Shown one piece after another: positions 10,049 to 48,059 of a stretch of DNA of 64,000 bases. The stretch covers positions 10,295,962 to 10,359,961 of the forward strand of contig OZ024933.1 of assembly GCA_964017235.1 (NCBI GenBank). The letters are read 5' to 3'. The translations under genes and the position numbers were made by a program. Each line of letters starts with the position of its first letter. The first letter of the stretch is position 1. The DNA is from Sabellastarte sp. h YS-2021. Taxonomy: Eukaryota; Annelida; Polychaeta; Sabellida; Sabellidae. A model generated the notes under the pieces. That model searched no databases and was not told where the DNA came from. It saw only the letters and a program-made list of their open reading frames with translations.

Positions 10049-10097
10049 CTCTTTATTTGTTACTTCTAATTTTGCTTTACCATAATATAGTTATTAC

Positions 10098-24779: not shown

Positions 24780-25215
24780 GAACAGTGAAATAGATCACCA
24801 CCATAGCTAAGTTGTTTTCAAAATTGGTGTAATTCTGTCCATTCATTTGTCTGGGTTTGTCTGTTTGTCCGTCAACATTTCTGTTTCCGAACTCTTACTC
24901 AAAAACGCTTTGTCCAATTGAATTTAAGCTTGAAAGGGAGACAGATCACCATCATAGCAAAGTTACTTTCGAAAGTGGTGTAATTCCATTTGTTTATTTG
25001 TCTATTTTTTGTCTGTTTGTCTATTCGTCAATATTTCTGTTTCCAGACTCTAACTCAAAAAGGCTTTTTCCAGGGAAACAGATCACCATCATAGTTAACT
25101 TGCTTTCGAAATTGGTGTAATTCTGTATGTTTGTTCATCTGTTTTTGTCCGTTTGACTGTCTGTCAGCATTTCCAAATTTAATTACAGCTAACCTTATTA
25201 CTGCCTGTGCAAACT
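24780..25215 (+). repeat. Tandem repeat, about three units of the 'CATTTCCGTTTCCGGACTC' family
   Basis: Each unit runs GTCCGTCAACATTTC, GTTTCCGAACTCTTACTC, CTTTGTCCAATTGAATT, GATCACCATCATAGC, TGCTTTCGAAATTGGTG. The same family is found in a longer array at 45115-45985. The 88-codon plus frame and the minus frame here are repeat translations. Confidence 0.75.
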
Positions 25216-25392
25216 GCCTTTTGGGGCATTTCTCACCTTGTTTCTTTTCAAGATCAAGATGTTTCAAATTTTCTCAAAGTCTTTTCAAATGTGAGTGTTG
25301 AACGCAAGAAAACTACAATATTTGTAACAAAATATACTTAAAGTTGTTTATATTAAATGTTCTAATTAAAACATTCAACAAATTCATTGTAG

Positions 25393-25448
25393 TTGGCGAT
25401 GAAGGATTGATCACATCCACTAGTTTCCTGGGAGGTGACATAGTTAAG
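25393..25448 (+). CDS. ParB-like gene, upstream 56-bp exon
   Basis: The exon lies between an acceptor (TTCATTGTAG|TT) and a strong donor (GTTAAG|GTAAGT). It carries two bases of a split codon and then GDEGLITSTSFLGGDIVK, ending in phase 0. It joins in frame to VSLDDGSSRYLDIQ of the exon at 27121, giving a continuous GGDIVK-VSLDDG segment. It is too short to be found by ORF length; splice sites, phase and sensible sequence are the evidence. The true first exon was not found. The intron after it is filled by a fragment of the 5.9-kb repeat and by a Helitron-like element. Confidence 0.6.
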
Positions 25449-25466
25449 GTAAGTTTGTCTCAAACA

Positions 25467-25590
25467 CACATGACCCCTTATTCAATGTCAAGTGGGGTTA
25501 TCTTACTACAAAGACCTTTGATCTTCTTTAGTTCTCCATTATTACTGATTCAAAGGCGGGAGATAACTGCTGCGGCAGTGGCCTTGTTAT
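25467..25590 (+). repeat. 3' end fragment of the 5.9-kb repeat family in an intron
   Basis: ATGACCCCTTATTCAATGTC through GGCGGGAGATAACTGCTGCG and GGCAGTGGCCTTG matches the last ~125 bp of the element at 5928-7934. It begins less than 20 bp after the splice donor at 25449. Confidence 0.8.
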
Positions 25591-25702
25591 CTTAAGAAAT
25601 AAACTCATGTTTCAAAGGTATCTGGGCATTAATTTTACTATCAAAATTCAGACAAAATAGCTAAAAAGAAATGTCTGGTAACAATTTACACTTGTGTAGT
25701 AA

Positions 25703-27072
25703 TTGTATCCACCGGAAGCATCCGGTGGATACTTTGGTTTAGCGTCCGCTACGCCGCCGCCGCGCGTAGAGAGATTTTCGGCGTTAACGCTCTAAGAGGA
25801 AAACAACAGCAGCTACGTTCACCAAATTTGCAGGATATCTTCATTGGGGGTAAGCTACTCTGGGAAGGAAAATAGCCTCATTCTGAAAAAGAAGGCATTT
25901 CTTTAAAAATGATCTACATTTTTCTACTGGCTCTTCCTCATAGGTAGAAGGTTGAATCTCTTCATAGGTGATATGTATGACACATATACATGTCCTCTAC
26001 AACCTTGCACACATTTGCACACATTTGACCTTGAAGCTCCTAATTCAAGGTCATCCACGGAGTGCCGAAGTAACCCACATAGCGGACTTTAAAAGTGCCT
26101 ATATCTCCCTTATTATTGGTCCTAGAGGTTTGCAATGTGAAGCCAACCTATAGGAAATCATGTGCTGCGAATCTTCTGATGTGGTCAGATTTGACCTTGG
26201 ACCCCTCATTCAAGGTCAAACGAGGATAGCCAAACTTATAAGTGCTTATAACTCGCTTATTATCAATCCTAGAGGTTTGGGATGGTAAACCAACATATAG
26301 GTAATCATGGGCTGGGAATCTTCTGAAGTAGTCGGATTTGACCTTGGGCCCCTCCTTCAAGGTCAAACGATGACAGCCAAACTTAAAAGTGCTTATAACT
26401 CGCTTATTATTGGTCGTAGAGGTTTGGGATGGTAAACCAACGTATAGGAAATCATGGGCTGGGAATCTTCTGGCATGATTGGATTTGACCTTGGGACCCT
26501 CCTTCAAGGTCAAACCGGGATGCCAAAGGTAAAAGTGCCTGTAACTCGCTTATTATTGGTCCTAGAGGTTTGGGATGGTAAACCAACATATAGGAAATCA
26601 TCTGCTGGGAATCTTCTGGTGTGGTCGGATTTGACCTTGGGCCCCTCATTCAAGGTCAAATGAGGGCAGCCAAACTTAAAAGTGCTTATAACTCGCTTAT
26701 TATTGGTCCTACAGGTTTGTCATGGTAAACCAGCATATAGAAAATCATGTGCTGGGAATCTTCTGGTGTGGTCGGATTTGACCTTGGGCCCCTCCCTCAG
26801 GGTCAAATGAGGACAGCCAAACTAAAAAGTGCTTATAACTCGCTTATTATTTGTCCTAGATGTTTGGGATGGTAAACCAACATATAGGAAATCATGCGCT
26901 GGGAATCTTCTGGTGTGGTCGGATTTGACCTTGGGCCCCTCCTTCAAGGTCAGATGAGGATAGCCAAACTTAAAAGTGCTTATAACTCGCTTATTATTGG
27001 TCCTAGAGGTTTTGGTGCATTGTCTTTATGGTGGATACAATTTGCATCGGTTCTCCGATGCGCTAGGTCTAG
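25703..27072 (+). mobile_element. Helitron-like non-autonomous element with satellite core (right copy)
   Basis: The left end has a perfect hairpin, GTATCCACCGGA-AGCA-TCCGGTGGATAC (25705-25732). The right end has the hairpin GCATCGG-TTCT-CCGATGC (27044-27061), followed 8 bases later by CTAG (27069-27072) and then T. These are Helitron-type 3' features. The core is a tandem array. It sits wholly in an intron of the ParB-like gene, ending 48 bp before the next exon. The 1731-3793 copy is in the opposite orientation. Confidence 0.8.
26050..27015 (+). repeat. Tandem array, ~147-bp unit, about six to seven copies
   Basis: The units are the reverse complement of the 1.8-3.4 kb array: ATTATTGGTCCTAGAGGTTT, GGGATGGTAAACCAAC, GGAAATCATGGGCTGGGAAT, GATTTGACCTTGG, CAAACTTAAAAGTGCTTATA. 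The long minus frame at 26148-26513 is a repeat translation. Confidence 0.9.
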
Positions 27073-27120
27073 TTACATGTTGCATTATTTTGTGTCCTTA
27101 CACATTTTACTCTGTTACAG

Positions 27121-27815
27121 GTTTCTCTTGATGATGGGTCGTCTAGATATCTGGACATACAAGAGTTCCAGGGTTCACCCATTGGATTTGAAAGAGATGT
27201 CACGGCGTCAAAATTTGTTTTGACACTAGAAAATCTTTTGGGGGGAACGAGCTTGCTACCTAATGTAGATGGACCTGCAGCTAGCAAGAAGCAGGTTCCT
27301 ACTTCCCCCTGTGCTGACACCAAAATTGGAATTCTGGATATTCCTTTTGGAAATTTAAACTTTGCTTCAGAGGAATACCGGTTACGCGAAAAAAATGAAG
27401 CTAGGGTGAATTATCTGGCTAAAATTCTTTGGCAAGAAAAGAAAGCAAGCTGAGCTCCATGTTAACCGTGTTGGTTTCTCCAGGGCAGACATACAAAGAA
27501 GGTGATGATCTGTGTAAGAAACAATTTATTGTTCTAGATGGTAATCACAGGTTAGCCGCGATGACTAAAGTCAGAGAAATCACCGGAGACCCTTCAGCTT
27601 TTGAGCATGTAACAAGCCATGTTTACAAGAACCTGTCTATTACAGAGGCACTTGTTAAAGGTTATTGTACTAATGATGTGAGTTCAGATGCTCTAAAGAC
27701 ATCAGACTATGATAAGGTAATCCTTGTGAGGAAACTGTGGAATGAACATCAGTTTAAAGAACTTGATGAGAAAGAGAGAATGGCAAAACTGTACACTATT
27801 CTCAAATCAGATGTG
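27121..27815 (+). CDS. ParB/sulfiredoxin-fold domain exon (one frameshift)
   Basis: The acceptor is CTCTGTTACAG|G and the donor GATGTG|GTAAGT. The 5' frame opens VSLDDGSSRYLDIQEFQG and continues to GILDIPFGNLNFASEEYRL and REKNEARVNYLAKIL. The 3' frame continues SKLSSMLTVLVSPG, QFIVLDGNHRLAAM and TSHVYKNLSITEALVKG. This is the order of the ParB N-terminal (ParBc) domain: a strand pair, an Arg-containing helix, a 'P-I-x-V'-like strand, the D-G-x-H-R-L-x-A box, then a final strand and helix. ParB proteins bind CTP through this fold; relatives are nucleases or sulfiredoxins. Activity here is unknown. The two frames meet at about 27420-27450. The exon is 695 bp, one short of a multiple of three, while both borders are phase 0, as expected from one lost base. 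A short A-run lies there, so a sequencing or assembly error is possible. Confidence 0.7.
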
Positions 27816-27974
27816 GTAAGTAGTCTGCAATTTTCTAAATAAATGATGTAATGTTCTTATTTTAAAATGCATATAAAAACTTTCATGTGTTATTTGATGA
27901 GCATTTAAATTTCAATGGTGTGAAAAAGGTTTAACATAAGCAGGATGGTAATTTACTAATTAAAATAAATCAAA

Positions 27975-28418
27975 TATCCTTGCTATAAACATTAAAAAAA
28001 CTTTTTGAAACATGCATTATACAACTCTGGGGCTTTTGTAAAGAAACATTTGGTAATGAACTTCAAATAAATGAACTAAGACGTTATCTTGGTGTTCACT
28101 GTCAAGAACCAATTCACGCAGTCATTCATACTTGGGTGATTAGCTGTAAAACTCAAATTTTACATGAACATTTGCAATTTTTTGGAATCATAACAAGCTA
28201 GAAGATGCAACATCACCAAAAGTATTTTTCAAAACCATGACTTTATGAAGCCAGATGACAATGGAACCTGGGTTAATGAAATAAAGCATAAAATTTTGCC
28301 TAATGTAGGGATAAAAGAGCTCAGATCTGTTCTGCTTTTTGATTTGAAAGAAATAGAATTTAAACTTTTGAACACCCTAGAAGAAAAATTGAGAAGCTGC
28401 TGTATTATGTAAACCAAA
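27975..28418 (+). pseudogene. Decayed protein-coding relic in an intron, unknown family
   Basis: A frame without ATG is open from about 27980 to 28202 and reads like protein (LFETCIIQLWGFCKETFG, ELQINELRRYLGVHC, EPIHAVIHTWVISCKTQ). A shift leads to KLEDATSPKVFFKTMTL. Another shift leads to KPDDNGTWVNEIKHKILP and SVLLFDLKEIEFKLL, ending at TAA near 28412. Amino-acid composition and helical periodicity look coding, but there are at least two frame breaks. It may be a lost exon of the surrounding gene or an inserted relic. Confidence 0.4.
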
Positions 28419-28804
28419 ATTACAGAACAATTAAAACCAATATTAAAAGTGAAAATTATGTTTAATTTAACTCAACTAAATATGTGTACACTTGTAGATA
28501 AAACTGATGTACAAATGTTACTATCAAAGACAGAAATGTTTCTGGTTTAAATTTATCTGTAATTATACATCATATAGTGATTTAAGAATCAATATAAAGT
28601 CAATACTGGTAGAAATGAGAAGCAAAAATACCCTTTTGACCAAAAGAAAAATTTGTAAAAGCCATGAATTCATCTAATAAATTCTTTTGAAAGCAATGTG
28701 TCATAACATTCTGAATTTATGTTATATATTGTTATTTGTTATCACACCACACACTAGTTTTAATAAGTTTTATATTGACATACAAGTCCTATAGTTGATT
28801 GGGT

Positions 28805-29135
28805 TACAAACTACTATTATTACCTACACCAAGGAGGTTAAGTTTTCGCTTGGGTTTGTTTGTGGGTTTGTGAGTTTTTTGTGAGTTTGTTTGTGAACAA
28901 GATAACTCAAAATCTTGTGGACGGATTTTGATGAAATTTTCAGGATATGTCTAAAAAGGTAAAAGGAAGAAATAATTCAATTTTGGTAGTGATCCGGATC
29001 AATATCTGGATCTTCTTGATCCATGAAATGTAATTTTTAAAGACAGATAACTCAAAAAGTTATGGACAGATATTGATGAAATTTTCAGGATATGTGCTCC
29101 CTTGGCGGAGGTCTGCACTCTCTGAGTGCTCTTGT
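28805..29135 (+). repeat. Interspersed repeat ('CCTTGGCGGAGGTCTGC' family), copy 1
   Basis: It starts ATTACCTACACCAAGGAGGT, contains two AGATAACTCAAAA...GATGAAATTTTCAGGATATG blocks and a GATCCGGATCAATATCTGGA block, and ends CTCTGAGTGCTCTTGTT. A close copy lies at 46437-46750 and a decayed one at 53885-54130. No coding function is seen. Confidence 0.8.
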
Positions 29136-29599
29136 TTTGAACTATGCAATTGTTTGATATGCATGTCACTATAATAAATGAATAAATAAATAAAAAATAA
29201 AATGTTATGCAAATTCAAAATAAAAAAACGTGAACACAAAAACAATAAGTGATATACAATAACTCATGTGATATTCAGCTAATTCACAGTTGGTGTTGAT
29301 ATGCACATCAAACAAGTACATGCAATGAAGAAACTATCAACTCTTTACTTGATACACTGAAAAGCTAATTTATAGAATTCACTTAATTCAATGGACCAGA
29401 ATCCAAAGGCTACAAGTCCTTTCAACTAATTATCTGTCATATGATGTAATATCAATTCCACCCTTAGATGTGTTAGTATACTTATCAAATATGAATTTCA
29501 TGCAATAGAATCACTCCCTGGAATCCTGTACTGTGAGGAATGATTTTTGGAAGAAGACATACTTTATATGTATGCTTAAATGTTTAAATATAATTGCAG

Positions 29600-29833
29600 A
29601 GAGAAAAAAAGCAAAAACTGCAGCCCTGAATGTTTGTGGGCAGATTAAATGCAGAGCAGTTTCAGATAGTAGAACCAGCCCTAAGAAATGGTATCTGTAA
29701 AGCTAGTACATTTAATATGTTGCGGGCTCTCAGTGACCCAGAAAGAATGATTGCCCTAACAAAATACAAAGAACAAGGCTACTGCAGAGAGGCACTGCTC
29801 CGGTGTTGCATGGGGAAAAACAAGAAAGAAAAG
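29600..29833 (+). CDS. ParB-like gene exon: helix-turn-helix-like segment (in-frame TGA)
   Basis: The acceptor is TATAATTGCAG|AGAG and the donor GAAAAG|GTAATA. The exon is 234 bp and phase 0 at both ends, matching its neighbours. In that frame codon 10 is TGA (29627-29629); after it the frame is open: RLNAEQFQIVEPALRNGI, CKASTFNMLRALSDPE and MIALTKYKEQGYCREALL. The pattern 'short helix, A-x-x-L-x-x-L-x-D-P-E, then a helix ending G-x-C-R-E' resembles the DNA-binding HTH and following helices of bacterial ParB. A basic tail (GKNKKEK) ends the exon. The TGA is either a true nonsense change, a base error, or a sign that the real acceptor or an exon before it is elsewhere. Confidence 0.6.
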
Positions 29834-29951
29834 GTAATAAATTAAATTGTGATTCTTAGATTAAGCTGAATAGTAACAAAGTTCAATTTTCCTTTTTAAT
29901 TGGTTGACACTTATTATTACTATCAAAAGAGAATACTGTGAGTAGATGATA

Positions 29952-30082
29952 CAGTGGAACCTCTATTATAGAACTGTCTTTTATTCCAGTTTTCAAGCTG
30001 CTATTTTAACCTTTCTATTATCCAACCTTTCTGTCTAAAATTGTTATTCTCCCAAGAGGGTCAGACAATAGAGGTTCCATTG
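29952..30082. mobile_element. pogo/Tigger-like MITE, copy 2
   Basis: The ends CAGTGGAACCTCTATTAT and ATAGAGGTTCCATTG are flanked by TA at 29950-29951 and 30083-30084. It is related to 5168-5331. Confidence 0.75.
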
Positions 30083-30569
30083 TACTATACTGAGCTATAT
30101 TTTATGGTGATAAAAATTTATATTCTGTTCCTGGCAACCCAATATAAATGACAGAGTTGCCTCTAGGGCACATTATGTGAGAACCTGTAGTACACAAGGC
30201 GATGCAGGAAATATATGAAGCGAAAAGATAAGATATCTAGAAAATCGAAACACTGGACGGATCGAGAGTTTGTCGAGGTTTTGATTTTTCTGTCGAAACA
30301 TTCTTTGAATAATACATATTGATGATGTGGTTTCGTGATCGTTTATTTATGTAAAAGAACTCAAATATATTATGTGCTACAGACAGTATTTAGACATATT
30401 ATATCCAAAAACATGAAATTAAGTTTAAAGTGGATGGTTATATGAAAAATGGCGGCAAGAAAAATGAAACTGACAGCAAACTAGATTGTTACCACAACAG
30501 GACAGTCAAGCTGGTGCTGACCCTACGTATCTGGCGGGTTTCCCAACAATGTATATGTAGAAAATATTT

Positions 30570-30870
30570 TACTTGAAGATCAAAATTCACGGACAACTCA
30601 TTAATATTAATGAGGTCACAGATTTTCATAATGGTTTCTTAACAATATTTTCTGCTTTAAGATCAAATACTAGATGGACCACAGAGCTCATGAATATTCA
30701 TATATGCGTAGAAAATATTGACAATTTCATGGGATTTTTAAACAATATTTTACTTGAAGAATTTGTGGACTACTCATTAATATTCATGAGGTCACTGTAT
30801 TCTGTGGGGTTTTCCAACATATTCATACAAATTGATGGTATAATGCCTGAATTTGTGATGCCGTGGCTTT
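30570..30870. repeat. Short divergent tandem repeat with CTCATTAATATTAATGAG palindromes
   Basis: Three degraded units, about 100 bp apart, each carry a palindrome of this type (CTCATTAATATTAATGAG, CTCATGAATATTCAT, CTCATTAATATTCATGAG) and AACAATATTTT. The 99-codon frame 30573-30872 is a translation of this repeat. Confidence 0.6.
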
Positions 30871-31642
30871 AGACGAAAACTTAAAACCATAGTGCAGTGA
30901 CACTTTGATGAAAATAACCATTTTATTTTTTTTTTAAATCTATCACTAGGCTTGAAGTTTATTCTTATTTAGCAAGACAATCACCTGACATTTACTTTTG
31001 TACATAACTGTATATAGTGGCATTCTACCAGTGAATGCCAGCCTACCAGTGAATGCCCACCTTATATTTCTTCAATACAATAGAGGTCAAAGACAAATGC
31101 TTCTGTATGTAAACTAAATGACTGTTAACTGGCATAAAATGACCGATAATCAATGTAATTTGTCAAAATACATAGTTTAAAGCAAATATTATCAGATATA
31201 CAACTGCTAATTATACCATATCTATCAATTAGTATTCTGGTACAGTTACCTTATAATCAAAGCCTATTAATAGAATTTAAAATATTATTTATTAAATTAA
31301 TTTGGAAGTATAAGCTAAAAGGTGGGTGTTCAATAGTAGATAACCACTACTTATTGGGTAGCCAAGTGGCCTTGATCACTAATTAACAGAAGTCCACTGT
31401 TAAAAATGTCTAAATAAACTGGAAAAAATATGTTTCATTAGTTTTAACTTTATCATACAGTCGTCCCCCAGAATTTTAGCCCCTCCCCCACATTTTATGC
31501 AGTGGTGGGGGATCACCCCACATGAAATTCCTAGAATCAACACTGAATGCTCTATAATAGAGTACATCAATAACATTTCTATTGAGAATGGATTGTATTT
31601 AGAAGAAATTATTACAGAAAAAGATTTACATTGACCACTATG

Positions 31643-31930
31643 CAGGGGCGGATCCACCTTTTAAGTAAGGGGTTCACATAAGACATACCATAACTAGGGG
31701 GTGGGGGCATGCCCCTGGAAAAAAGATAAGTTTTGGTAAAAATATAGTGCATTTCTTGTAAATTTAACTCCACTGTCAAGAAATAATTTTGCCTAAATGT
31801 CTATATGTAATTTTTAAATATTGATGCCAAAATAATAAATAATAGATTGAATCTGTATTTTTTGTACTTTGGGTTGAACCCCTTTGCATTATTTTTCAGG
31901 GGGGGTTTGAACCACCTGGATCCGCTAGTG
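31643..31930. mobile_element. MITE with CAGGGGCGGATCC end
   Basis: The left end is CAGGGGCGGATCCACC. The right end is GGTTTGAACCACCTGGATCC followed by GCTAGTG. The ends are imperfectly complementary, in the style of hAT MITEs (CAGGGGCGGATCCAG). The flanks share CTATG but not a clean 8-bp duplication. It lies about 30 bp before the exon at 31961. Confidence 0.6.
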
Positions 31931-31960
31931 CTATGCTACATTAATGTGATTATTTTTCAG

Positions 31961-32099
31961 ACTAAAACAGCACCAGTTGTAATTTCTGCTTTTGAAGAGG
32001 GCATCCAATTCAAGCATGGGTCAAAAGTACTCCACAGTCCAATCATTGAAGCATTTGGTGTGACAATGGAAGCATCAGTATTCGAACAGTTGATAAAAG
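31961..32099 (+). CDS. ParB-like gene exon, middle segment
   Basis: The acceptor is GATTATTTTTCAG|ACT and the donor AAAAG|GTTTGT. It enters in phase 0 and leaves in phase 1. It codes for TKTAPVVISAFEEGIQ, FKHGSKVLHSPIIEAFG and VTMEASVFEQLIKG, a mixed alpha/beta segment with no motif I recognise. It follows directly on the basic end of the 29600 exon in phase. Confidence 0.6.
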
Positions 32100-32882
32100 G
32101 TTTGTCACTCGAGTACTCAGTTTAAAATTCTGTAAGCCATATTTTAGAAGATAAATGGTGTGAATAGTGGTATTTCATTATTTTTCGAATGGCTATAAAG
32201 GAAAATAAAGGATGTCTTGATGAAAAAACATAAGGTTCAACCAAGTATTTTTTGATGATGTATGACCCTCCTATGCTTTCTAATTTTCTGTATTATGCTT
32301 CTAAAGTCTATCTTTAGATGAAGGTTAGGCTCTATAAAAGTACTATAAGAATTAGAATAATTGATATAACCTTGTCGAATGATGCCACCAAAAGAAATCA
32401 AGATGAATTTTTATCACTGCATATTTACTACCACACTGGATTTTTGAAATACCACTTTTTAAAATAACATAATTTCTTTCCAAATTTTAACCTTTTACCA
32501 AAGAAGAAACAAAGCACATAATAAACACAGTTGAGAATTTGTCCACAGTGGAAAGGTTAACAAGGTAGTCACTTAAATAAGGCTCCATGGCAACAAACTT
32601 AGTTCTTACAATCTGATATTAAGTTATTTTTTACTATTTACAATTTCTAGCAAAGCATGTGGAGAAGCAGTAAAGTTGATAAGTTTATAAGTTAAGTTTA
32701 TACCAACATGCTTTGTATGAAGGAACAGAAAACACTTGAAGAGTATGCCGTTCATGATTTTAATGTTGCAAAATTAGAGATTTTCAGTTTAAAATTAATT
32801 AATAAGACAAGGGGTTTTTCTAAATGTTTGAAAATATACATTGAAAATTTAATCTATTTTTAAGAAAAACAACTTTTTACAG

Positions 32883-32945
32883 ATAACTTATCCAGTACAA
32901 AACTAATGGAGAGCAACGAAAAACACAACTCAGACAGCTTGGGAT
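32883..32945 (+). CDS. ParB-like gene, short linker exon 1
   Basis: 63 bp between CTTTTTACAG|AT and GGGAT|GTAAGT, phase 1 at both ends. It encodes NLSSTKLMESNEKHNSDSLG, polar and probably disordered. It can be skipped or duplicated without changing frame. Confidence 0.5.
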
Positions 32946-33231
32946 GTAAGTTATCAGTTGTGTACTTTTCTGAATTTGATTGATCAATTTATTACAGGGC
33001 AAATGTTTTCCTCATACGTGCCTCTTGTCATTGTGAATTAATAGGTTTATGCTTCCATGTGTACAGATTTCAAATTTAAATAAAGGAACATCTGAGTTAA
33101 TTGTACAAGAGAAGGCTTCTCACCATACTTAACATGTAGATATGTTATGAGTTGGAATAAACTAAACTAAAAGGAAAATGTTTGTAACAAGAGCTGAAAT
33201 TGAGCCATTTTACTGATTTTTTTCATTTTAG

Positions 33232-33282
33232 TTACTTCAACAGTAGATGTACAGCAGATCAATGAAACACTTCAAACTACAA
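33232..33282 (+). CDS. ParB-like gene, short linker exon 2
   Basis: 51 bp between TTTCATTTTAG|TT and ACTACAA|GTGAGA, phase 1-1. It encodes TSTVDVQQINETLQTT after a split codon. Confidence 0.45.
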
Positions 33283-33418
33283 GTGAGATATTTGAAATTT
33301 TTCTCATATGAACTGTTACACATTGACACTGTAACAAAAATATAATTGACTTTCACTCTTGGTATCAGCAGAGTTACAGCTTTTGGTGTAAATTGATTAT
33401 ATGGCACTTGCTATGAAA

Positions 33419-33734
33419 TACCCCTTTCACACTACAGGCAGTATCACCTGTGGTAAGATATACCTGTCCTTCGATCCACACCTGACATCCGTTTGTAAAC
33501 TTGTGAGTCAGTGGCAAACCATCCATTACCTTGAGCATCCACTGTGACGCAAGGTTATATATGAATCTCAAACAGTAGTTCAAAGACTGGGGTACTTGCC
33601 AAATGCATATAACCATGAATGACATCGCCTGTAGTGTGAATAACTGGGATAAAGTGGGGAGATCTGGGAGGCACTTCTGGTGCTGAGGAACACCTGTAAC
33701 CGTGAGACATACTACCTGTAGTGTGAAAGGGGCA
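33419..33734. mobile_element. MITE with CCCCTTTCACACTACAGG ends
   Basis: The left end is CCCCTTTCACACTACAGGCA and the right end the complementary ACCTGTAGTGTGAAAGGGG. The length is about 316 bp and there is no ORF of its own. It sits in the intron after linker exon 2. The target duplication is unclear (ATA/ATT). Confidence 0.75.
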
Positions 33735-34189
33735 TTAGGATATTAACTTTAGCATCACAACTGACTAAAGATTAAATTACTTTGATTGATTTTGACCTCT
33801 CTGTATTTTAATACAAAGTAGTACTACTTCTAACAAGGCCGAAAGGGGTTTCGGTCTACTAGCACCAGCTACAAAGCCATCAGAGACATGAGTAATGCGG
33901 TCACCCATCCATGTACTAATGAAGTCATTTGCTGCTTAACTTCAGTGATGAGAGAGGTACTCATCACGATACACAATAATTAATAAAAGTCTTGAGACAA
34001 AAAAAAGAAAAATAGAAATGAAAATAAAGTGATCTCTAGAAGCAAAAGCCTTGCTAGAGCTCGCACTTAAAAGTATTGACTTGCTTTTAGCATTTAAATA
34101 ACTCCACTGCTTGAATTTGTTTTTTCAGAATTTATCATTTTTTAGTTAGAAGATTTCTTTAGTATTAGCTGTTTTTCTCTGCTTTTCAG

Positions 34190-34249
34190 CAATGAATCCA
34201 ACACAGAAAGGGTCTGACACTAGTGAAATTCCTGAAGTCAGTGACGAAG
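34190..34249 (+). CDS. ParB-like gene, linker exon type A (copy 1)
   Basis: 60 bp between TCTGCTTTTCAG|CA and GACGAAG|GTAAGA, phase 1-1. It encodes TMNPTQKGSDTSEIPEVSDE. The start is nearly the same as the exon at 42646 (TMDPTQESSKEINELNDT), and it is the same size and phase as the exon at 40380, so these three are one exon family. Confidence 0.5.
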
Positions 34250-34291
34250 GTAAGAGAAACTGAATTATGTAAATTTTCCTGTTTAGGCATA

Positions 34292-34763
34292 CCATATTTA
34301 TTCGTATAAACGCCCTGGGGGGCGATGCATTTTTCAAAAGGGGGGGGGGGGGGGGGGGGGTGACTATAGCCTATTGAAAAAAATCAAATCTTGAGTCCAA
34401 TGGCAGTGGCCGATAATTGACACTTTTGGTCTTGAACTCGCTTGCCAGTACGTATAATGGCGAAAGAGCTTAAAATATTGGAAACTAACCTTAAATTTGA
34501 AGAATTTCTAAATCTTATCTTGTGCTTTTGCAGATTTTAAGGCATTTGGATCAAAACTTCCATCTTCTGTTTCGATTTTTTTTATTTCTCGTAAGCAAAA
34601 TTCAATTCGGGAAGTACTAAAACGCATCTTTTTTTGGAATCCCGGAATCGCAAAGGTGCTGGCTGTTGAGATGGATGTAAAACCCCAAAATATGAAATTT
34701 GCAAAGCTTGGGAAGAGGGGGGGGCTATTAATAGGAAGGGGCCATTTATACGGATAAATACGG
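34292..34763. mobile_element. TA-flanked MITE, second copy, with G21 run
   Basis: The ends are CCATATTTATTCGTATAAAC and TTTATACGGATAAATACGG, next to TA on each side. The interior matches 23162-23857 (GCGATGCATTTTTCAAAAG, GGAAGTACTAAAAC, AATCCCGGAATCGC). It carries a run of 21 G at 34340-34360, where the other copy has a short GGCGGGG. Confidence 0.85.
34340..34360 (+). repeat. Homopolymer run of 21 G
   Basis: Twenty-one consecutive G lie inside the MITE, in an intron. The tract could form a G-quadruplex, and its length is probably variable or uncertain in the assembly. Confidence 0.9.
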
Positions 34764-36312
34764 TAATGCAATTGTTAAAAATAGACAAGTTTCTTGTAGA
34801 TGACCAAAGATCATATTTTCAGGTATCATTATAATATTTTTATGCTTCATGGAGAAAAATTGTTATTAAAAGCTTTACGAAGCTACATTATTTATAATGT
34901 TAAGAAGTGTAATATGTATACACCTAGAAAAATATAAAAAGTTTAACAATAGGAGCATTTCCCGATATATTTGATGGCAGATGCATAATTAGCATAAGAT
35001 TTATTTAAAATCATATTTCTGGCTTTGATGGTGTATATTTCTATCAAGGGTAACCTGATAATGTTGTCTGGAGTCTTGAAAGTCGGGGATATATTGGTTT
35101 CACGTCCATCATTTCACACATTTCAGTCAAATGTGGCAGATGTATTTGGGTCAGGAGAGGAATCCTATTTTAAGATGACCTTAAACTCCCCATAATATAG
35201 ACATTATGGCCACCTTAAAGTCAGAAATTTGACGTTTGGCCATTTTTTTGACTTAAAAATGGTAAGTCTGACAAGTCTCATATTGTAGTAGATATAAGGT
35301 CTACATGTAATCTTTGGCTGTGAAAAAATTTAAGTCTATCGCTTTAATGTCACCTTAAAGTTAGACACCCAATTTATGGAGTTTATGTCTTTTTAAGCCC
35401 TACATCTGTCAAATGATGTGACTAATAGAGTGGAAATTTATCCGGGAATATATGATTATGTGCTAATTACATGTGCCAAAAACCAAGGTTTTTAGTAGAC
35501 ATTTAACAGAAGACAGTTTTTTAATTGAGTAAAAAATGAAAAAAAATAGAGTGACCAAAAATAGTGAAAAATAGTTGACAGTAATTGTGAATCACACAAA
35601 ATGGGGGCTACAAAAATAAAAAGTGAATGCTGTGGCATGAGAGATGACCTATTTGGGGATATGCTGGCATCAAATCGACACAATCTAGTTATCTTTTCAG
35701 TTGGAAGTGTTGGCTAAATAAGGTGTTAAAAACATGATAAAGCAGCACTATTCAGGAGAGCAGAGATCACTGACAAGCAACTTGGTTCCAGGCTCATTTT
35801 CTCATATTGTTATTTGTTGAATCATATTATCAGGAAATATTATGCAGCATAAACTTAAGTATATCACAAACATAATTGTCCTAGTGTTGTGTATGTTGTT
35901 GCCAAGCAATTTGATAGGGAAAATTGGCATGTCATAGTGCTAAAAGATACTTAATAACCTGGGTCCAGTCAGTGATCCAGATCACCACCAAATTGAATCA
36001 CCTGTTCCTTATGCCATTGTCAATAAAAAACCTAAAAAATAGTTTGTTTTGCAAAGACAAACAAATTAATGCCTTCAAAAACACTTTCTGCTATGTTGAG
36101 GTAAAAATCCTTGCAAATGCACATTCCTGTTTTGAGTACCAAATTTATTTGGTCATCAGCTGAAAATTAGCATTCTGGGACTGCATTATCTAATTATCTA
36201 CTATCCATATTTCCAACAATATCTGATTAAATAGCTATGCATATATTTGGTTGGTGCTTATAGGAAAAAATATTTTTATAAGTATGTATACAATAAACCA
36301 TTATATTTTCAG

Positions 36313-36369
36313 AGACACTGAGGATACTGGCAAATTACAGTCCCAGAAAACTTGACACCAGTGTGTTTG
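36313..36369 (+). CDS. ParB-like gene, short linker exon 4
   Basis: 57 bp between TATATTTTCAG|AG and GTGTTTG|GTGAGA, phase 1-1. It encodes TLRILANYSPRKLDTSVF. It has the position and size expected of a type-B exon but lacks the KRRKR cluster, so it may be a diverged relative. Confidence 0.4.
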
Positions 36370-36638
36370 GTGAGAAAATAAAGCATCCCTGAAAGGGTGC
36401 TTATTAGTTTTCACTTCAGTTTCCTCTCCACTGCCGCATTATGGTCTCCCTTGAGTATCTCCCTTATTATTAGAAGCTTTCTATCCACATTTGTCAGCTA
36501 AATACCTTGTTTAAATTTTTCCAGATGCTTAAACTCGACCTTTGATCTTTATGAAGGTCACATGATCAAAAAGTAGTCATTGCACTCAGCAAAATCTACA
36601 GAGCACAGAGGCTTGCAATTTCATACACATGTTTATAC

Positions 36639-37023
36639 TAGGGCTGGGACGGGTGCTGAAAAACGGCATCGAGTACTCGCCCTCTCACAACCGGCCCAAA
36701 ATCGAGTAACTGTGAGATTTAGTATCTACCATTAGAAGTCTTCTATAAACAGATAGTCTGTTCCGGAAATGAAACTTTAGAAGTAAAACGTCTTCTATCT
36801 GACCAGATATTATAGAATATGGAGTAAATTATATGTTTTCAAGCGAAAATAACTTTTAATTAATATGTGACAGAAATGCTGAAATGTGGCATATTTTACA
36901 CAAGCGTTTTATTACATGGGCGATAATACAACACCTCGTGAGTAACCGAGAATTTAAAATAGACTCGAGTACTATCAAAGATCGACTCATCTATCGAGGC
37001 TCGAGTACTCGTTCACAGACCTA
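36639..37023. mobile_element. hAT-type MITE with perfect 8-bp duplication GTTTATAC
   Basis: The ends are TAGGGCTGGGACGGG and ...CGTTCACAGACCTA. GTTTATAC flanks both (36631-36638 and 37024-37031). Internal GAGTACTCG/CGAGTACT blocks are inverted relative to each other near the two ends. There is no transposase. Confidence 0.85.
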
Positions 37024-37031
37024 GTTTATAC

Positions 37032-37765
37032 TATCAAAAACTCAAGCAGATTAGATTTTGGGAGTGATCCAATGAAAATTGACCGATTTATGAGTGATTT
37101 TATCAGTGCTACCAACCAGAAAGCTCAACATTTGTGTGAACCCCTATTATCTTATTAAATATTGCATTTGGAGACATAAAATGTATTGGGAGGTACTAGG
37201 AAACCATATGTGGAGAGTATAGAAAGCAAGTCAATTCCCCCCCAAGCCCCTTGTAGGATCAAACTGGGGTCATAAAATAGCAGATTTTGACATTTTGTCT
37301 TATATCTTCTTTAATAATGGCTTTAGAGCTATTGAGAAACCATATGTAGAGAGTCTAGATAGCCAGATTTACCCCCTGACCCCACTTATGGGTCAAACTG
37401 GAGGTCATAAAATATCCAATTTTGCCTTTTTGCATTGTGTCTCCTTTATTAGTGCTTTTACAGCTATAGAATGTATTTGAGATGGTACAGGGAAGCATAT
37501 AGAGAGAGTCTACAGAGCCAGTTAGATTAATGCCCTAGCTACTGCCCCCACCTTATGGGCCAAACTGGGCTCATAATATACAATAGATTTTTTTTCTTTT
37601 CCCTTGTATCTCCTTTATTATTGCCTTTACAGCTTCAGAATGGATTCCATGTATGAAGTCTATATAGCAGTTCAGATTTACCCACGACACTCTGTTATCA
37701 GTCAAACCTGGGTCATAAAATTTTCTGTTTTTTCCCCTTATATCTCCTTTTAAACAACTCTTCTT
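37032..37765 (+). repeat. Divergent ~150-bp tandem repeats in an intron
   Basis: About four degraded units share CTTATATCTCCTTTATTA, GGGTCAAACTGGGGTCATAA and CCATATGTAGAGAGTC-like blocks. Related single units occur at 38700-39000 and 44870-45080. No gene is supported. Confidence 0.6.
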
Positions 37766-38124
37766 ACAACTTATACATTTATTAAATTAACTTTTCACAA
37801 TTTATGACCACAGAAGAAAACTAAAGCTTACATTTTTCTTTTATGTTAATGTATAGACCTCCACACTGTCTGCTTAACATTCACTTCTTGTCTCAGCACT
37901 GTATGTTTTTCTTTTCAAAAACTTTTTTCTACTTTATACTATATTGCATCTAACCTTTGGGGATGCTTGTTTTTGTTAGCAAAACATATTTTTAGTGTGA
38001 CTTGAGTTATTAAATCTTAAGAAAAACAAGAGAGAGATATTGGTTTTGAGCTCACCATATGGCTACTGATAACAAATGTGATAACTGAATAATAAATTGA
38101 CAGAATGTTTTAAATATTGGTATA

Positions 38125-38355
38125 GGGGTCATGGTGGCAGAGTGGTAACACTCTCGCCTCCCACCTCTGAGGCTGGGGTTCGGTTCCCGGCATGGCCTCA
38201 AGTGGCAAAGCTGGTAGTTGCTTGCTGTTGATCCACATTTTACAGTACAGCACCTTGACCAATTGTATGTACTGGTTTCCTCTGCCATTCCAACTACCCG
38301 TCGTGATATGACCTGTACAGTGTTAAAAGCAACGTAAAACCCCAAATAAATAAAT
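38125..38355 (+). mobile_element. tRNA-derived SINE, 231 bp, second copy
   Basis: It has the same head (GGTGGCAGAGTGGTAACAC), B-box-like GGTTCGGTTCCC and tail (GTAAAACCCCAAATAAATAA) as 23363-23593, and an identical length. AAATATTGGTATA is duplicated at 38112-38124 and 38356-38368. The minus frame 38052-38417 is its shadow. Confidence 0.9.
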
Positions 38356-38368
38356 AAATATTGGTATA

Positions 38369-40049
38369 TATGAGTATGGGCAACAATACTGTGTCTTGGC
38401 GATCTTGATGGAGCCATTTTAGCAATGGTGCCCTTGGTAATGTCAATTTTTGGCCCCTACTACAATTCTTAAATATGGTATCTTTATCATGCTTTAAAAA
38501 CAGTTGAGGTCAATCAAAGATCATAAAGTTCTGCTTGTTATATTTTAACCCGTTGCTCTGGAAGTATGGAATGGAAGCCATTCATATTTACACAAAACCT
38601 TGAAGAAGAAAAAAACAAATATTGTTATCCAGTACCTTGACTTTGGTATTATTATTCCAAAGTTTTACTCCTAATTACGTGTTACACAGCATTGACTTCA
38701 GTTTCTCTTATTACTTATCCTAGGGGTTTGCAATGACAAAACATGTAGGATATCATCAATTGTGAATCTTTTTACAAGGTTAAATTTAATATTGACCCCC
38801 TGCTTTATGGTTAAATATAATTAAATTTCCAAAATTGCCTTTCATTTCCCTTATTACTAATCTTCAGGGTGATGAATGTCACAATAATTTAGAGGTCTGG
38901 AAATCTTTTTATTGAACAGGATTTGACCTTTGATCTCTTTCTAAAGGTCACCTAGATCTTTTAACAAAAATTCCAACATGAGCTCTGTCTCCATTTATTA
39001 TTGCTAATCTGGAATGCTCCAAATAATTTATCGTGGGCAACAAATCATATTATGGTGAGACATTGATTTTTCATCCTTGTTTAAACATCTATTAGATGTG
39101 ACTTTTTGCCCTTATTTTGATACCAAAAAGAATAGATTCACAAAATAGGGCAAAAATCTTCCTAATTTATTCAAAGGATGAAGGTGAGGCATATATTTGT
39201 CTCAAGCTTATTGTGTGCAACAGAACTTGACCTCAAGAAACATAATCTGAAGAAGCTAACCTAGACCTTCAGTTAGAGCTGAATCTGTTATGTTTGTTAA
39301 TATTTCTAAGGGCTAGAAGCCTTTTCTTGCTGGGCTTAATCTTCAATTTCAAGTTCAGTGGAAACTTGGATAATCTAAACATTTGGCTCTTTTATTCATT
39401 TTTTCACCTAATTCTCACATGCCGCAGCATGGATCCTGTGGTTTTTAATGTGTGTAATTTACATACTTGTCCAGTAGAGCCTGCAAAACGGACATTTTGG
39501 GTTGTAGGTATGGACACAAAGAATGGAAGTAATTTAAATTTGCAATGAATCTTAAGAAAATCATGAGGTTCACTGTGGCTTATCACAGGCTGTCACCTTT
39601 TTATAGGGGGTTTGACTTTTACAAGTCACAAGTGCTGAGAATCTGTCTCAATATGACTATGTACTGCTGTATGGGGTATAAAATTCCAACTTAGAACATT
39701 TGAGAAACAATGAAGTATTTATATTCAATACTTATCTGTTACCTTGATTGTATTTGTTCATGTGACCTTTGAACCCTAATTCATAGTCAAATAAGATAAA
39801 CCTTTTAGGAATGACTTCATGCCTCATTAACTATTGGTCCTAACAGTTTAAAATCTTGGGTCAATTTTGAGCTTTGATATGTGTATCTATTGTGCACAAT
39901 AAACAAAATGAATACCGAATTGCGAGCTAAATTTTTGTTTTGGGCCTACCAACCCATCCATATTATATAGTGAGGTGATTCTGGGGAAGATGTAGGGTGC
40001 AGTTGAGATATTCAAACTAAATCTGACTTTTAATATCTCATTGTTTTAG
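38369..40049. other. Intron sequence with decayed repeats
   Basis: Degraded units of the TTATTACTTATCC/TGACCTTTGATC family run through 38690-39240. I see no exon with good splice signals before 40050. Confidence 0.4.
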
Positions 40050-40109
40050 ATTACTCTTCACCTGAGAAAGATGATAAGAGGAGGAAAAGGACCAAGCCAC
40101 ATACCCAAT
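40050..40109 (+). CDS. ParB-like gene, linker exon type B (copy 1), basic
   Basis: 60 bp between TTGTTTTAG|AT and CCCAAT|GTGAGG, phase 1-1. It encodes YSSPEKDDKRRKRTKPHTQ, with KRRKRTKP as a likely nuclear-localisation or nucleic-acid-binding cluster. If the donor is not used, the frame runs on to TGA at 40175-40177, giving a possible alternative end. It is closely related to the exon at 42293. Confidence 0.55.
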
Positions 40110-40379
40110 GTGAGGAAAACAGTGGTTCTAACATTAAAAGGATCTTATGTCCAGACAAGAGAGATATTAGTCAATGAAAATCCTTAACATAACAGTGTGC
40201 TCAAGGATAATTTTCCTTTAATGAATGTAAAATGTTAAATTCTTAATCTATTTAGAAATGTAAAAAATAACTTGATAAATGTTTTGTATAAAACTTTTCT
40301 TTGATTGGTGCAATATTTGATATTTCATTTAATATTTTCATGCACAAATATTTTAACTCAATCACTTTCTTGCTTTCAG

Positions 40380-40439
40380 CAGCAGACCCAAATCCCGAAA
40401 GATCCAATAACATTGATACATCTGAAGATACTGATAAAG
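40380..40439 (+). CDS. ParB-like gene, linker exon type A (copy 2), GC donor
   Basis: 60 bp between CTTGCTTTCAG|CA and GATAAAG|GCAAGT, phase 1-1. It encodes ADPNPERSNNIDTSEDTDK. The donor is GC, in the strong context AAG|GCAAGT that permits GC-AG splicing. It is followed at 42293 by the second type-B exon. Confidence 0.5.
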
Positions 40440-41019
40440 GCAAGTAAAATTGCAACATGAATTGAATATTATTGTACACAAGCCTGTGGTATCAAGAAGT
40501 AACCCTTTGCTTGACTAGTAATTGAGTACATTGTATATTATATCCCTTAATATATAGATTTTGAAATACACTAAACAACAATAAAGTAGGTTCAATTAAA
40601 TCTTATGTCAGTATGTTTGATATGACAATCATTATGATAATGATTTTTATGTCAGTTGACTTATCAGTCTGCTGACATTATTGCATCACTCTGTTTTGTA
40701 CACATCCACATATGCATCTGTGTGAACAACTTCTGCTGTGTTCTTAAAGATACATTATGTATCAATGGTGAAAAATTGTTCAAGGCATGTAGATTGGTCC
40801 ATTCATCTGTTCCCCAGAGCCATTGCAACTGAGGTACCCCCACCCAAAGTGTGCAAATTTCAACAATTTATCGCAATTTTCTCGTTGACTATTGAGGGGA
40901 TTTCTCTGTTATCTTGCATATATGTACTAGGCCACAAGTAGATTCCCTTGTATGAGTATCAGGCCTGTATTTTTCTTAATTATTGTATATGAATTTTTAA
41001 AATTATTTTTAATGCATTA

Positions 41020-41985
41020 ATACATTTATAACTTGAAAAGTATTGCAGTTAGAGTATTTTATGAAAATTGTTATTCAGCTACTTTTCCCATATATACAAA
41101 ATGGAGAGTAACTTCTGCATTTATCCCCATAGCTTAGTGAGTATTAGCTACTTTTTGACTTTTAAATAACTTCCATAATGAGTAAAATCACTTGTTAGTT
41201 AAAAACTATTGCAATTAGAGAATTTGGTATAAATATCTTATTCCGCTAGTTTTGGGTTAGTTATAACAGTGTAAAATTACATACCTGTAGCTCATTGTAT
41301 TGCTGAGTAATATCTACTTTGAGGTTATCACTGTTGAGTAAATCAGTCACAACTTGAAAACTATTGTAGTTAGAGTATTTTTAGTTATTCAGATACTTTT
41401 GGGTCAGCTAAACCAAATTTCAGAACTGTATCTCACTGTATAGCTGAGTAAGGGCTACTTTGAGGTTCTCACTGTTGAGTAAATTGCTTATAACTCAAAA
41501 TCTATTGCATTTAGATAATCTTTTTGGAATATGTTATTTATCTTCTTTTGGGCTAGCTATAACATAGTAAAATTTCATATGTGTAGCTCTTGGCATACTT
41601 GAGCAATAGCTACTTTCAGGTTTTCACAGGTGAGTATATCAGTTATTTCATTACATAGCTGAGCAAAAGCTACTTTCAGATTGTAACTGTTTAGTAAATT
41701 TCTAAAAACTTGAAACTATTGCATTTAGATAATTTTGTTTGAATATATTATTCACCTTCTTAAGGGTCAGCTGTAACGGTGAAACTGTAGACTTGTAGCT
41801 CATTACATAGCTGACCAATAGCTACTTTCTGGTTTAAAATTTGTTATTCACCTACTTTTGGGTCAGCTTTGAAATAGTAAACTTGCAGACCTGTAGTTCA
41901 TTGCATAGATGAGAAATAGCTACTTTCAGGTTTTCACTGTTGAGTAAATCAGTTGTAACTCAAAAACTATTGCATGTACACTATT
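41020..41985. repeat. Highly diverged ~130-bp tandem repeats in an intron
   Basis: About seven units repeat TTCACTGTTGAGTAAATC, AACTCAAAAACTATTGCA, TTATTCACCTACTTTTGGG, GTAGCTCATTGCATAGCTGA and AATAGCTACTTTCAGG. No coding function is seen. Confidence 0.75.
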
Positions 41986-42292
41986 TTGTTAAATGTTTCC
42001 ACCTACGTTTTACACCCTAACAGTTAAGTGGGTACTTCTGAATACTTTGCACAAGTTTTGTGTCTTTTTCTTCTTTCACTAATACTCTGAAACTAAAAAC
42101 ACACAGTCAGCTGACATGGAGCCCTTTCAGGGGACTGATTGCTTGTTTAAATGTAAATCAATATGCTTTCTGGTTTATTTTATATACATGTCAGAAAGTA
42201 TTATTTGTGTCTATTTAATGCATGTTATGTCATTCAAAGTAAAACTGCCAGTTATATTTACATTTTTTTTAAATAATGTTTTATTATTTTAG

Positions 42293-42352
42293 GTAGCTCA
42301 TCAACTGCAAAAGAAGAAAAAAGAAGAAAACGAAACAAACCAGAATCAAAAA
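42293..42352 (+). CDS. ParB-like gene, linker exon type B (copy 2), basic
   Basis: 60 bp between TTATTATTTTAG|GT and TCAAAAA|GTACAA (a weak donor), phase 1-1. It encodes SSSTAKEEKRRKRNKPESK. The KRRKR-N/T-KP cluster is shared with the exon at 40050. Reading past the donor reaches TAG at 42400-42402. The intron that follows resembles the one after 40109 (CAGACAA-AG-GATA and GATAATTTTACTTT blocks). Confidence 0.55.
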
Positions 42353-42645
42353 GTACAAAAATTAGTTTTTCTGAAATAAAAAATCTCATAAAAAAATCTT
42401 AGGTGCAGACAAAAGTGATAAAATAGTAAAAAAATGATCATGTATGAATTAGCCTTAAGATAATTTTACTTTTTGGAATATGAAATTTAATCTCAAATCT
42501 TCAATTTTACTTGATGAAATGCAATAACTGATTAATATTTTAATTTTGTGCCAAATTGGATTTAATTGATATATGTAAATATGCTGAAAATAATTTAATA
42601 AACATTACACCGGATGTAATATTTTAATGATTTATTGACTTTCAG

Positions 42646-42699
42646 CAATGGATCCAACCCAGGAAAGCTCTAAAGAAATAAATGAACTCAATGATACAG
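42646..42699 (+). CDS. ParB-like gene, linker exon type A (copy 3), GC donor
   Basis: 54 bp between GACTTTCAG|CA and GATACAG|GCAAGT, phase 1-1. It encodes TMDPTQESSKEINELNDT. It is the second GC-donor exon of the gene and is closest in sequence to 34190-34249. Confidence 0.5.
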
Positions 42700-43075
42700 G
42701 CAAGTACTGTATTTTTTTTATTGCAAAATGTGATAGATTTGGAGAATCATGTAATTCATAAGAGAATATCTAGGGAAAATGAATTGTAAAAAGATTACTC
42801 TTTTTGATGAGAATTGCAAGTGAACATATTTAGTGCTCACAAGATATCTTTCTACGTCCTTAAGCCACACCAGAAGATGAAAATAAATTGATGTGTCCTA
42901 AAGTTTATTGAGTCACTGATAGTATGTATTGGCCTATATGTATGTGTTGGTGATGTTCATAATCCCATGAAATTATCATACTTAAAGTTATGACATGTGT
43001 AGATACAACAATATTGTTCTAATACATATGGGAGTTAAAATATTCTTCTGCATTAATTATACATTTATCTTTAAT

Positions 43076-43165
43076 TCTATCCACCGGATAGCAGTGTGTA
43101 GAAATTTCACCGTTACTGCTCCAAAGAAAAATATTATAGCTAGCCTTCTCAAATTTTCTCACTTT
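43076..43165 (+). mobile_element. 5' fragment of a Helitron-like element next to the last exon
   Basis: TCTATCCACCGGATAGCAGT, AATTTCACCGTTACTGCTC and ATATTATAGCTAGCCTTCTC match, inverted, the 5' end of the 1731-3793 element. The fragment ends 15 bp before the exon at 43181. Confidence 0.7.
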
Positions 43166-43180
43166 TATCTCTTTTTACAG

Positions 43181-43371
43181 AATATTTGTTTCATCCTACA
43201 CCCATGGTGGTCAAAGTGGGAGACTACATCCTGATGAAAATTAATGAGAAATGCAGTGAGGAAGAGAAAAAGATGCCATGGATTGGGGTTGTAACCAAGC
43301 ATTCCCCAAACAAAGTTTGGTTTGATTGGGTTATAGTACAGGAGTGTGGTATTGTGTATATGTTACACTGA
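43181..43371 (+). CDS. ParB-like gene, terminal exon with SH3/BAH-like motif
   Basis: The acceptor is CTCTTTTTACAG|AA and it enters in phase 1. The frame runs to TGA at 43369-43371. It encodes YLFHPTPMVVKVGDYILMK, then MPWIGVVTKHSPNKVWFDWV. 'V-x-V-G-D-Y-I/V-L-x-K ... W/Y-I/V-G-x-V' is the start of small SH3-like barrels such as BAH-type and transposon C-terminal domains. It is cut short at VYMLH, so the barrel looks incomplete unless a further exon is used. No AATAAA lies close behind the stop. Confidence 0.55.
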
Positions 43372-44869
43372 ATATGTAAAATCAGGGGATACACTTGTTT
43401 TGATTACTAGGGAATATGCATATTCCCTAACTAGACATTGCTCTTTGATCTTTCAATTAGAAACAAATCACCCATCCTTCATTGATCAAACAGGTGATTA
43501 ATTAACCCACTCAGTTTGCAACAAAATATGTCTTTGGTATATTGGTCATGGATGAATAAGCAAAGGTCCTATTAATTCAAAATAACTTGAAAATTTTAAA
43601 TGTTCCAAAAGAGGCAGGGTATCAGAATGAAATTAAAGTCACAATAGCATTTATATAATCTCTACAATATTTAAAAGCAACATTTACAGTCTACAAAAAA
43701 TCAATAATCAAAATCACCCATTACTTGAACGTACTGCTTAAATAATCAACTAAACTAACTTAAGAGCTAAATCTATTCTTACCCCCAAAAAAATAATTTT
43801 CCTTATTAAACAGTCTGCACATTAGTTATTAGGTTATCATATTTATTCCATAGAATGAAACTTTGACCTCTCAAACTTATGTATACCCTGAAAGTATAAC
43901 TTGTCCTGGTATATTTGACTTCAAGCAACCCTTTTAGTAACAAAGTGGTTGGAGTATGGTAAAACACCGCACTCGAGAAGAAATTCTACAGTACGGTACC
44001 ATTCATTTGCCGTATCCAGTAAATAAACCAGAGTGTGGTTCAAGCTGGAATCCTAATAATCTCACAGAGTGAAGGGTTTCTATATTTTAAATACAGAACA
44101 ATTAACCAACCAGTCTATTTTTCATCTGCAAACGTTATTAATTTAATTAACCAATGAAAACAATTGTTGCTGAAACCTCACTGAGACAAATATCTTACTC
44201 TCACCGCAACTACTGTTGACGTTTTGTACCAATATATTACAAATAGAATATCAAATGTTAGTACTTGCACACACAGACTTAAGGAAATATGAGGTGATTT
44301 AAGGAAAGGTGGGTAATTCTAGCCATATTTTACAATTGGGAGATAAACCCAACCAATACTATTTTTCATCTGCAAAAGTGATTAATTCAATTAACCAATG
44401 AAAACAATTGTTACTGAAACCGCACTCGAAACAAAGTTCTGGAGTGTGGCAATCCGTACTGCAGCATTTTTTTTAGGGAATGGTTTTACTGTACCGCAGC
44501 AAACGCCCTTTTAGTAAACTTAGAAAAAATTACATATAAAGAGAAGTAGGACACTAAATTGTTAGATTTGTAAGTGAACTTTCTACCTTATTTCTAGCAT
44601 TATACTGTAATAATGGCCCATTATACATATTCGCTAATTTCAGTTCAGGGAATATGTGAAGCAATTGCCTGAAAAGCTTAGGGAATATGCATATTCCCTG
44701 ACCATTTTAGGAAATACGCATATTCAGTAAAAATTCCAGGGAATTCGCATATTACCTACTACATATATTCACTGTAATATACATACTTTTAAATTGTCAA
44801 AATTTTGAAATTAGATTAGGGGGTGATTGTAATAAAACTGGGTGATTTATGAGCATTTTTATACACGGT
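43372..44869. other. Intergenic or intronic, with a degraded inverted repeat
   Basis: 43960-44520 contains related GGTAAAACACCGCACTCGAG and AGGGAATGGTTTTACTGTACC blocks in opposite orientation. It also has two AATTAACCAATGAAAACAAT repeats, one of which matches 20240-20280 inverted. AGGGAATATGCATATTCCCT palindromes occur near 43410 and 44680. No gene is supported. Confidence 0.45.
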
Positions 44870-45114
44870 AGCAATCAGAAAGCCAGTCAGATTTCCATCT
44901 AGACTACCTCAATGATCAAAGTGGGTCATATATCACAGGTTTTGTATTTTATATCTATACATTGCTTCCAGAGCTTAAGAATATATTGGGAGTAAAGAGC
45001 AAAGCGTATACACAGAGTCAATAGAGCTGGTCAGATTCGTTCCCTGGCCCTTTCATTTAGGTCAAAATTGGGTTGTAAAATTGAGGTTTACTTTTATCTT
45101 GGTCATTTTTAGGC

Positions 45115-45985: not shown

Positions 45986-46436
45986 CAACCCGCCTTTTGG
46001 GGCATCTCTGACCCTCTTGTTGCATTTATTGCTGTATAAAGCATTGGGAGTAAAAAGGAAACCATATGCAGGAAGTACCAAAGAATATGAAAGATTTGTG
46101 CACCCTTTCAATGTGGGACAAATTTGGGTTGAAATTGTTTCTTTGTAACTCTAAAAACTATCAGATTTCAATTTCTTGGAATAAGTTATTCAGCTGTATG
46201 TCTGTTTCTTCCTTATGCAAAATTTCAGACTTCTATCGGCAGTATTTAGTGAATAATGAACTCTTTTGCATGGTTTTCACAAGTTTTTTACACCGAGTAC
46301 AATGATTCCTCCTGTAAATATATTTGTCACTCTATTGCAATTAGGGTCAATTGTTAGATCTTAATAAACCCATTATAACATAAGAGCAAGAAACAGATTG
46401 CAGAAAGAGCAAGTGCCATTTTGTAATTATGCAATG

Positions 46437-47236: not shown

Positions 47237-47244
47237 ATAAACAC

Positions 47245-48055: not shown

Positions 48056-48059
48056 TTTT

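Follow-up and report, generated by a model that had tools for sequence, protein, structure and literature searches.

An apparent pseudogene of a multi-exon eukaryotic gene family with a predicted ParB fold

Introduction

ParB is the switch of bacterial chromosome segregation. The gene described here lies in a 64,000-nt window (the whole stretch of DNA analyzed, on contig C7 of a 1.786-Gb assembly; coordinates are positions in this window), and the third exon of its intact relatives is predicted to adopt a ParB fold. Compared with ParB, Noc, and KorB, the gene is divided into 14 exons, gives no match to PF02195, has lost the Box III Glu within its clade, and has an extra exon 5, linkers, and a C-terminal part, while its helix-turn-helix (HTH) is only putative. 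The evidence leans somewhat toward reading the window gene as a pseudogene of a eukaryotic, presumably animal, nuclear family in which a ParB-fold domain would combine a nucleotide switch with DNA or chromatin binding.

Sulfiredoxin has the superfamily fold in common with this gene and is named in the available portion of a 2025 fold survey as the commonest eukaryotic form (PMC12704722). Its motif, given as F(S/G)GCHR in an excerpted source (PMC9925728), differs from the FIVLDGNHR found here. The DGNHR region and its surroundings weakly match the N-terminal domains of DndB and GmrSD in Pfam. The Sola1 transposon protein of Ectocarpus is likewise an instance of a ParB-like domain within a repeated element of a eukaryote, and it has, in the excerpt at hand, a DNA methyltransferase (PMC12477816); none was seen here, and the two are likened by description alone. 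According to its available portion, the 2025 survey scanned eukaryotic proteomes by PF02195 at a cut-off (PMC12704722). Since PF02195 gave no match above cut-off in the whole genome, nor among the Pfam results for the window and the family, a family such as this one would be missed by a PF02195-based survey. Among the matches listed from open-licence PubMed Central papers, there was no report of an animal gene family of this kind.

Results

The 14-exon model begins at the ATG at 24126 (Table 1), one exon upstream of position 25393, where the first-pass annotation had placed the start. The phases agree except at the lesions described below, all introns from exon 5 onward are phase 1, and the longest introns reach 3.7 kb. 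A search of the genome with the exon 3 domain gave 25 matches, two of which were the window's own two halves; the members found here set a lower bound on the size of the family. The closest three matches lie at C7:11.228 Mb, C7:119.574 Mb, and C20:6.823 Mb, and their exon 3 frames are open over 256 to 259 codons. Each of these sisters has the same 14 exons, amounting to 651 open codons, with the intron-end dinucleotides kept. The earlier view that the exons are spliced in consistent phase was thus supported by splice sites and dinucleotides kept in three sisters and fails, as to phase, at the lesions. Between the C7:11.2 Mb and C20 sisters, 45 codons carry synonymous and 44 carry replacement differences (replacement rate, dN, 0.032; synonymous rate, dS, 0.126), from which purifying selection on the protein was deduced.

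Two divergent loci, on C1 and at C7:21.6 Mb, show 36 to 37% identity in the domain. In both, homologues of exons 4, 5, and 14 follow the domain, collinear and on the same strand, with E values of 7e-12 and 1e-9 for exon 4, 5e-16 and 5e-9 for exon 14, and ~0.02 in each locus for exon 5. Nothing below E 1.3 was obtained from 11 control stretches, which were shorter and in some cases copies of one another. This conserved exon order supports the exon joins independently of transcripts and, together with the three full-length sisters, agrees with the joining of exons proposed at first pass.

The coding and splice-site scores of the window copy itself were mixed. Parts of exon 3 had an amino-acid score reached by 0/177 and 0/49 random open segments, exon 4 was reached by 5/500 and exon 5 by 1/500, and exons 6, 7, and 9 were not above such segments (reached by 143, 104, and 259 of 500). 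Poor splice-site ranks were obtained for the acceptor at 29602, the exon 6 acceptor, and the exon 12 donor. The gene model therefore depends on the sister copies. A version of exon 4 with acceptor 29602 and a frame shift was rejected, as the sisters give acceptor 29600 and a nonsense codon. The protein of the family, as predicted from these exons, is 651 residues long, with the ParB-fold domain near the N terminus and further conservation in exons 4 and 14. The linkers are basic and probably flexible.

The case for the ParB fold became strong only when the open relatives were added. A model of the open sister exon 3, built from family rows only, predicted a ParB/sulfiredoxin (Srx) fold, in line with the ParB-fold core that the first-pass annotation had proposed for an intron-bearing gene. 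The refuting outcome named there, absence of a ParB/Srx fold match, did not arise. ParB, Noc, and KorB scored above the rival enzyme folds (sulfiredoxin, free serine kinase, and DNase) in this comparison, which covered the families in the VIA list. The open relatives also match PHROG ParB-like profiles. By hhalign, the family alignment reached no better than E 0.059 against nine canonical ParBs, with GxxR and EN in register. The GNHR of Box II (GxxR) was invariant in all four alignment rows; the truncated relative L077 has GNHH in its place. Modeling the second half of exon 3 from a single sequence was uninformative (predicted local distance difference test, 48.2).

For the window copy alone, Pfam returned GmrSD_N, HVO_2928_N, and DndB at E 0.017 to 0.084, and PHROG returned phrog_1033 at E 0.011. 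When the Box II stretch FIVLDGNHRLAAM was kept and the rest was shuffled, Pfam returned DndB in 3/9 controls (best, 0.006), GmrSD_N in 1/9 (0.014), ddrB-ParB in 1/9 (0.1), and HVO_2928_N in 0/9. The 10 PHROG controls, comprising nine shuffles and one sequence with both flanks reversed, gave another ParB-like family in 4/10 (0.14 to 0.17) and other families at 0.012 to 0.014, those of unknown function reaching 0.012. In four profile tests (HMM and hhalign), the score of the real sequence was equaled or exceeded by 156/400, 135/400, 63/150, and 65/150 shuffles that kept the motif. The Pfam and PHROG matches of the window copy were rejected as ParB support because shuffles with the motif scored alike or better. 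The ParB evidence from the window copy alone was weak, its signal being the motif.

Exon 4 had been read as an HTH. It is conserved within the family, and it did not match the canonical ParB HTH columns, nor did Pfam searches of the gene's exons return any HTH family; an HTH there is putative. The suggested SH3- or BAH-like end is putative too, with no family of that type found in the Pfam searches. NCBIfam and PADLOC searches gave no matches, and PDB sequence searches gave two weak matches (E 0.28 and 0.3) in one and none in the other. Short-pattern scans of viral contigs and prokaryote genomes and tblastn against phages found no relatives. With the divergent relatives as queries, phage searches yielded no E value below 0.3, one match being a gene annotated as ParB-like, at E 1.

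The window copy differs from all three sisters by three lesions (Table 1). The peptides quoted at first pass are present in the sequence and do not share one frame: exon 3 breaks at lesion 1, and the domain is split over two frames, with LTVLVSPG and LDGNHRLAAM in the second. Since the deletion of ~380 bp cuts exon 14 at 43340, the C terminus quoted from the window is not the true one. Lesions aside, comparison of 548 codons of exons 1 to 13 with the C7:11.2 Mb sister shows 5 synonymous and 6 replacement differences, with one more codon skipped. Sequencing error might account for one lesion, but hardly for a nonsense change and a clean deletion on top of it. Judged by its sequence, the window copy is a recent pseudogene, and probably no working protein is made from it. 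Bacterial contamination, already discounted at first pass, is excluded by the introns, the assembly size, and a nearby retroelement, and the host is a eukaryote.

On C8, C5, C11, and C14, a ParB-like gene of more remote relationship was read (L078 type; AGNHRR, YREN), and two further places, C11:91.5 Mb and C14:8.6 Mb, have the same match coordinates. Its domain gave no better than E 0.33 to a ParB-like PHROG and E 0.0068 to 0.077 to the C1 relative, and its putative ParB identity is based on these values and on reading by eye. The L078-type stretches on C5 and C14 are 99.8% alike over nearly 6 kb, the length of the compared sequence.

The window gene lies in a duplicated unit. Units at C7:10.3 Mb (the window), 11.2 Mb, and 119.6 Mb can be aligned across at least 40 to 45 kb in blocks of 94 to 99% identity, only blocks of ≥94% identity and ≥250 bp being compared among the C7 copies. 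The match to the 119.6 Mb copy starts from 8766, has gaps, and is limited on the left by the end of the compared sequence. A right edge at ~49585 is common to the three C7 copies, and no similarity was found beyond it. The C20 copy has blocks of ≥250 bp at 70 to 95% likeness and by this measure is older than the C7 copies. The setting is compatible with segmental duplication and with a large mobile element. It is possible, with clearly lower probability than a resident nuclear gene family, that a very large DNA transposon carries the gene as cargo or as an accessory gene, with the protein acting on element DNA and the C7 and C20 copies being copies of the element. A domesticated mobile element, suggested at first pass, may likewise be involved, the gene being carried in large repeated units. 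The large C7 units with their common right end and the near-identical L078-type stretches are consistent with this, as is the algal Sola1 transposon with its ParB-like plus methyltransferase protein, so far as the excerpted account describes it (PMC12477816). However, no transposase was seen, no inverted copy of the 300 bp at the right edge occurs in the window, a shared end is established on the right side only, and the introns and the purifying dN/dS equally suit an ordinary gene.

Table 1. Positions of the features of the gene and its surroundings
Feature	Position	Strand	Support or remark
Exon 1, has start codon	24126..24180	+	98-100% identity in three sisters, donor kept
Exon 2	25393..25448	+	Splice sites, kept in sisters
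Exon 3, ParB-fold domain preceded by N-terminal extension	27121..27815	+	Sisters; fold predicted from open sister exon
Lesion 1, one base short; frame meets TGA at 27451-27453	27428..27453	+	Comparison with sisters (3/3)
Box II (GxxR) region FIVLDGNHRLAAM	27525..27563	+	Read from sequence, alignment
Exon 4, conserved domain	29600..29833	+	Sisters; 43% and 34-38% identity in two divergent loci
Lesion 2, in-frame TGA in exon 4	29627..29629	+	Sense codon in three sisters
Exon 5, short conserved stretch	31961..32099	+	Sisters; weak in each divergent locus
Exon 6, linker	32883..32945	+	Splice sites, sisters
Exon 7, linker	33232..33282	+	Splice sites, sisters
Exon 8, linker, similar to exon 13	34190..34249	+	Splice sites, sisters
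Exon 9, linker	36313..36369	+	Splice sites, sisters
Exon 10, basic linker with KRRKR, similar to exon 12	40050..40109	+	Splice sites, sisters
Exon 11, linker, GC donor	40380..40439	+	Splice sites, sisters
Exon 12, basic linker with KRRKR	42293..42352	+	Splice sites, sisters; weak donor conserved in three sisters
Exon 13, linker, GC donor	42646..42699	+	Splice sites, sisters
Exon 14 as read in window, C-terminal domain, shortened	43181..43371	+	Splice sites, sisters
Lesion 3, junction of ~380-bp deletion at 7-bp repeat within exon 14	43334..43340	+	Deletion in none of three sisters
Duplicated unit common with C7:11.2 Mb (gaps)	4423..49585	.	Left limit is end of compared sequence
L078-type gene segments	L078 1381-2022; L096 2413-3054		Dispersed, partly near-identical copies on several contigs

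Exons 10 and 12 are alike at the DNA level (40031-40166 versus 42274-42420; 64% identity, extending beyond the donor), as are exons 8 and 13, and both pairs are probably the result of internal exon duplication. Read-through beyond the donors of exons 10 and 12 leads to short alternative ends. Arrays of a 147-bp tandem unit occur at 1811-3399 and at 26089-27012, the latter inside intron 2, where the C7:119.6 Mb copy has an expanded array, while an array of an 89-bp unit at 48364-49330 stops ~250 bp short of the shared right edge. The retroelement at 58696-63468 matches RVT_1 (1.9e-10) and RVT_3 (4e-5), corresponding to reverse transcriptase and an RNase-H-like domain, and has an upstream open reading frame in two frames. 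A following open reading frame resembles, by eye, a tyrosine recombinase such as occurs in DIRS-type elements, with no Pfam match. Elsewhere in the genome, C14:45.698-45.716 Mb holds about six degenerate tandem copies of the exon 3 segment plus some of its intron sequence, all longer matches containing stops, and C19:67.983-67.996 Mb holds six matches to the C1 relative at ~2.4-kb spacing, each with a stop.

Discussion

The most likely function of the family is that of a nucleotide-switched DNA or chromatin binder. The ParB-fold domain would bind a nucleoside triphosphate via the GxxR loop and use it as a switch, and the basic linkers and the C-terminal part would hold the protein to DNA or chromatin. 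A KRRKR-like stretch is a type of nuclear signal, and from the KRRKR linkers we infer a nuclear location.

The residues of Box III bear on the switch. The Glu is replaced by Thr in the window and sister clade and by Gln at C7:21.6 Mb; it is present in the C1 relative and in L078. Its loss in the clade would suit a chromatin protein whose ParB fold serves as an inactive scaffold without nucleotide binding, and so would the finding that 17/28 purified ParB-fold proteins were without nucleotide binding, as given in the available portion of a survey (PMC12704722). We consider an inactive scaffold unlikely, however, since 4/4 alignment rows retain GxxR and the Asn of Box III. That the fold is instead catalytic, as in a sulfiredoxin-like or free serine kinase-like enzyme or a nucleotide-regulated DNase, is more doubtful still, given the higher fold scores of ParB, Noc, and KorB and the presence of GNHR rather than the F(S/G)GCHR of sulfiredoxin reported in the excerpted source (PMC9925728).

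Beyond the preferred reading of a nuclear family with a nucleotide switch, a wider and more speculative proposal is that this presumably animal lineage retained a ParB-type nucleotide-switched DNA clamp as a nuclear family. Large repeated units would have carried and dispersed it, and it might be the component that binds DNA in an as yet undescribed giant mobile element. With a eukaryotic family that has many exons and a ParB-like fold and is under selection, it becomes a testable question whether a ParB-type nucleotide switch acts on DNA in the nucleus.

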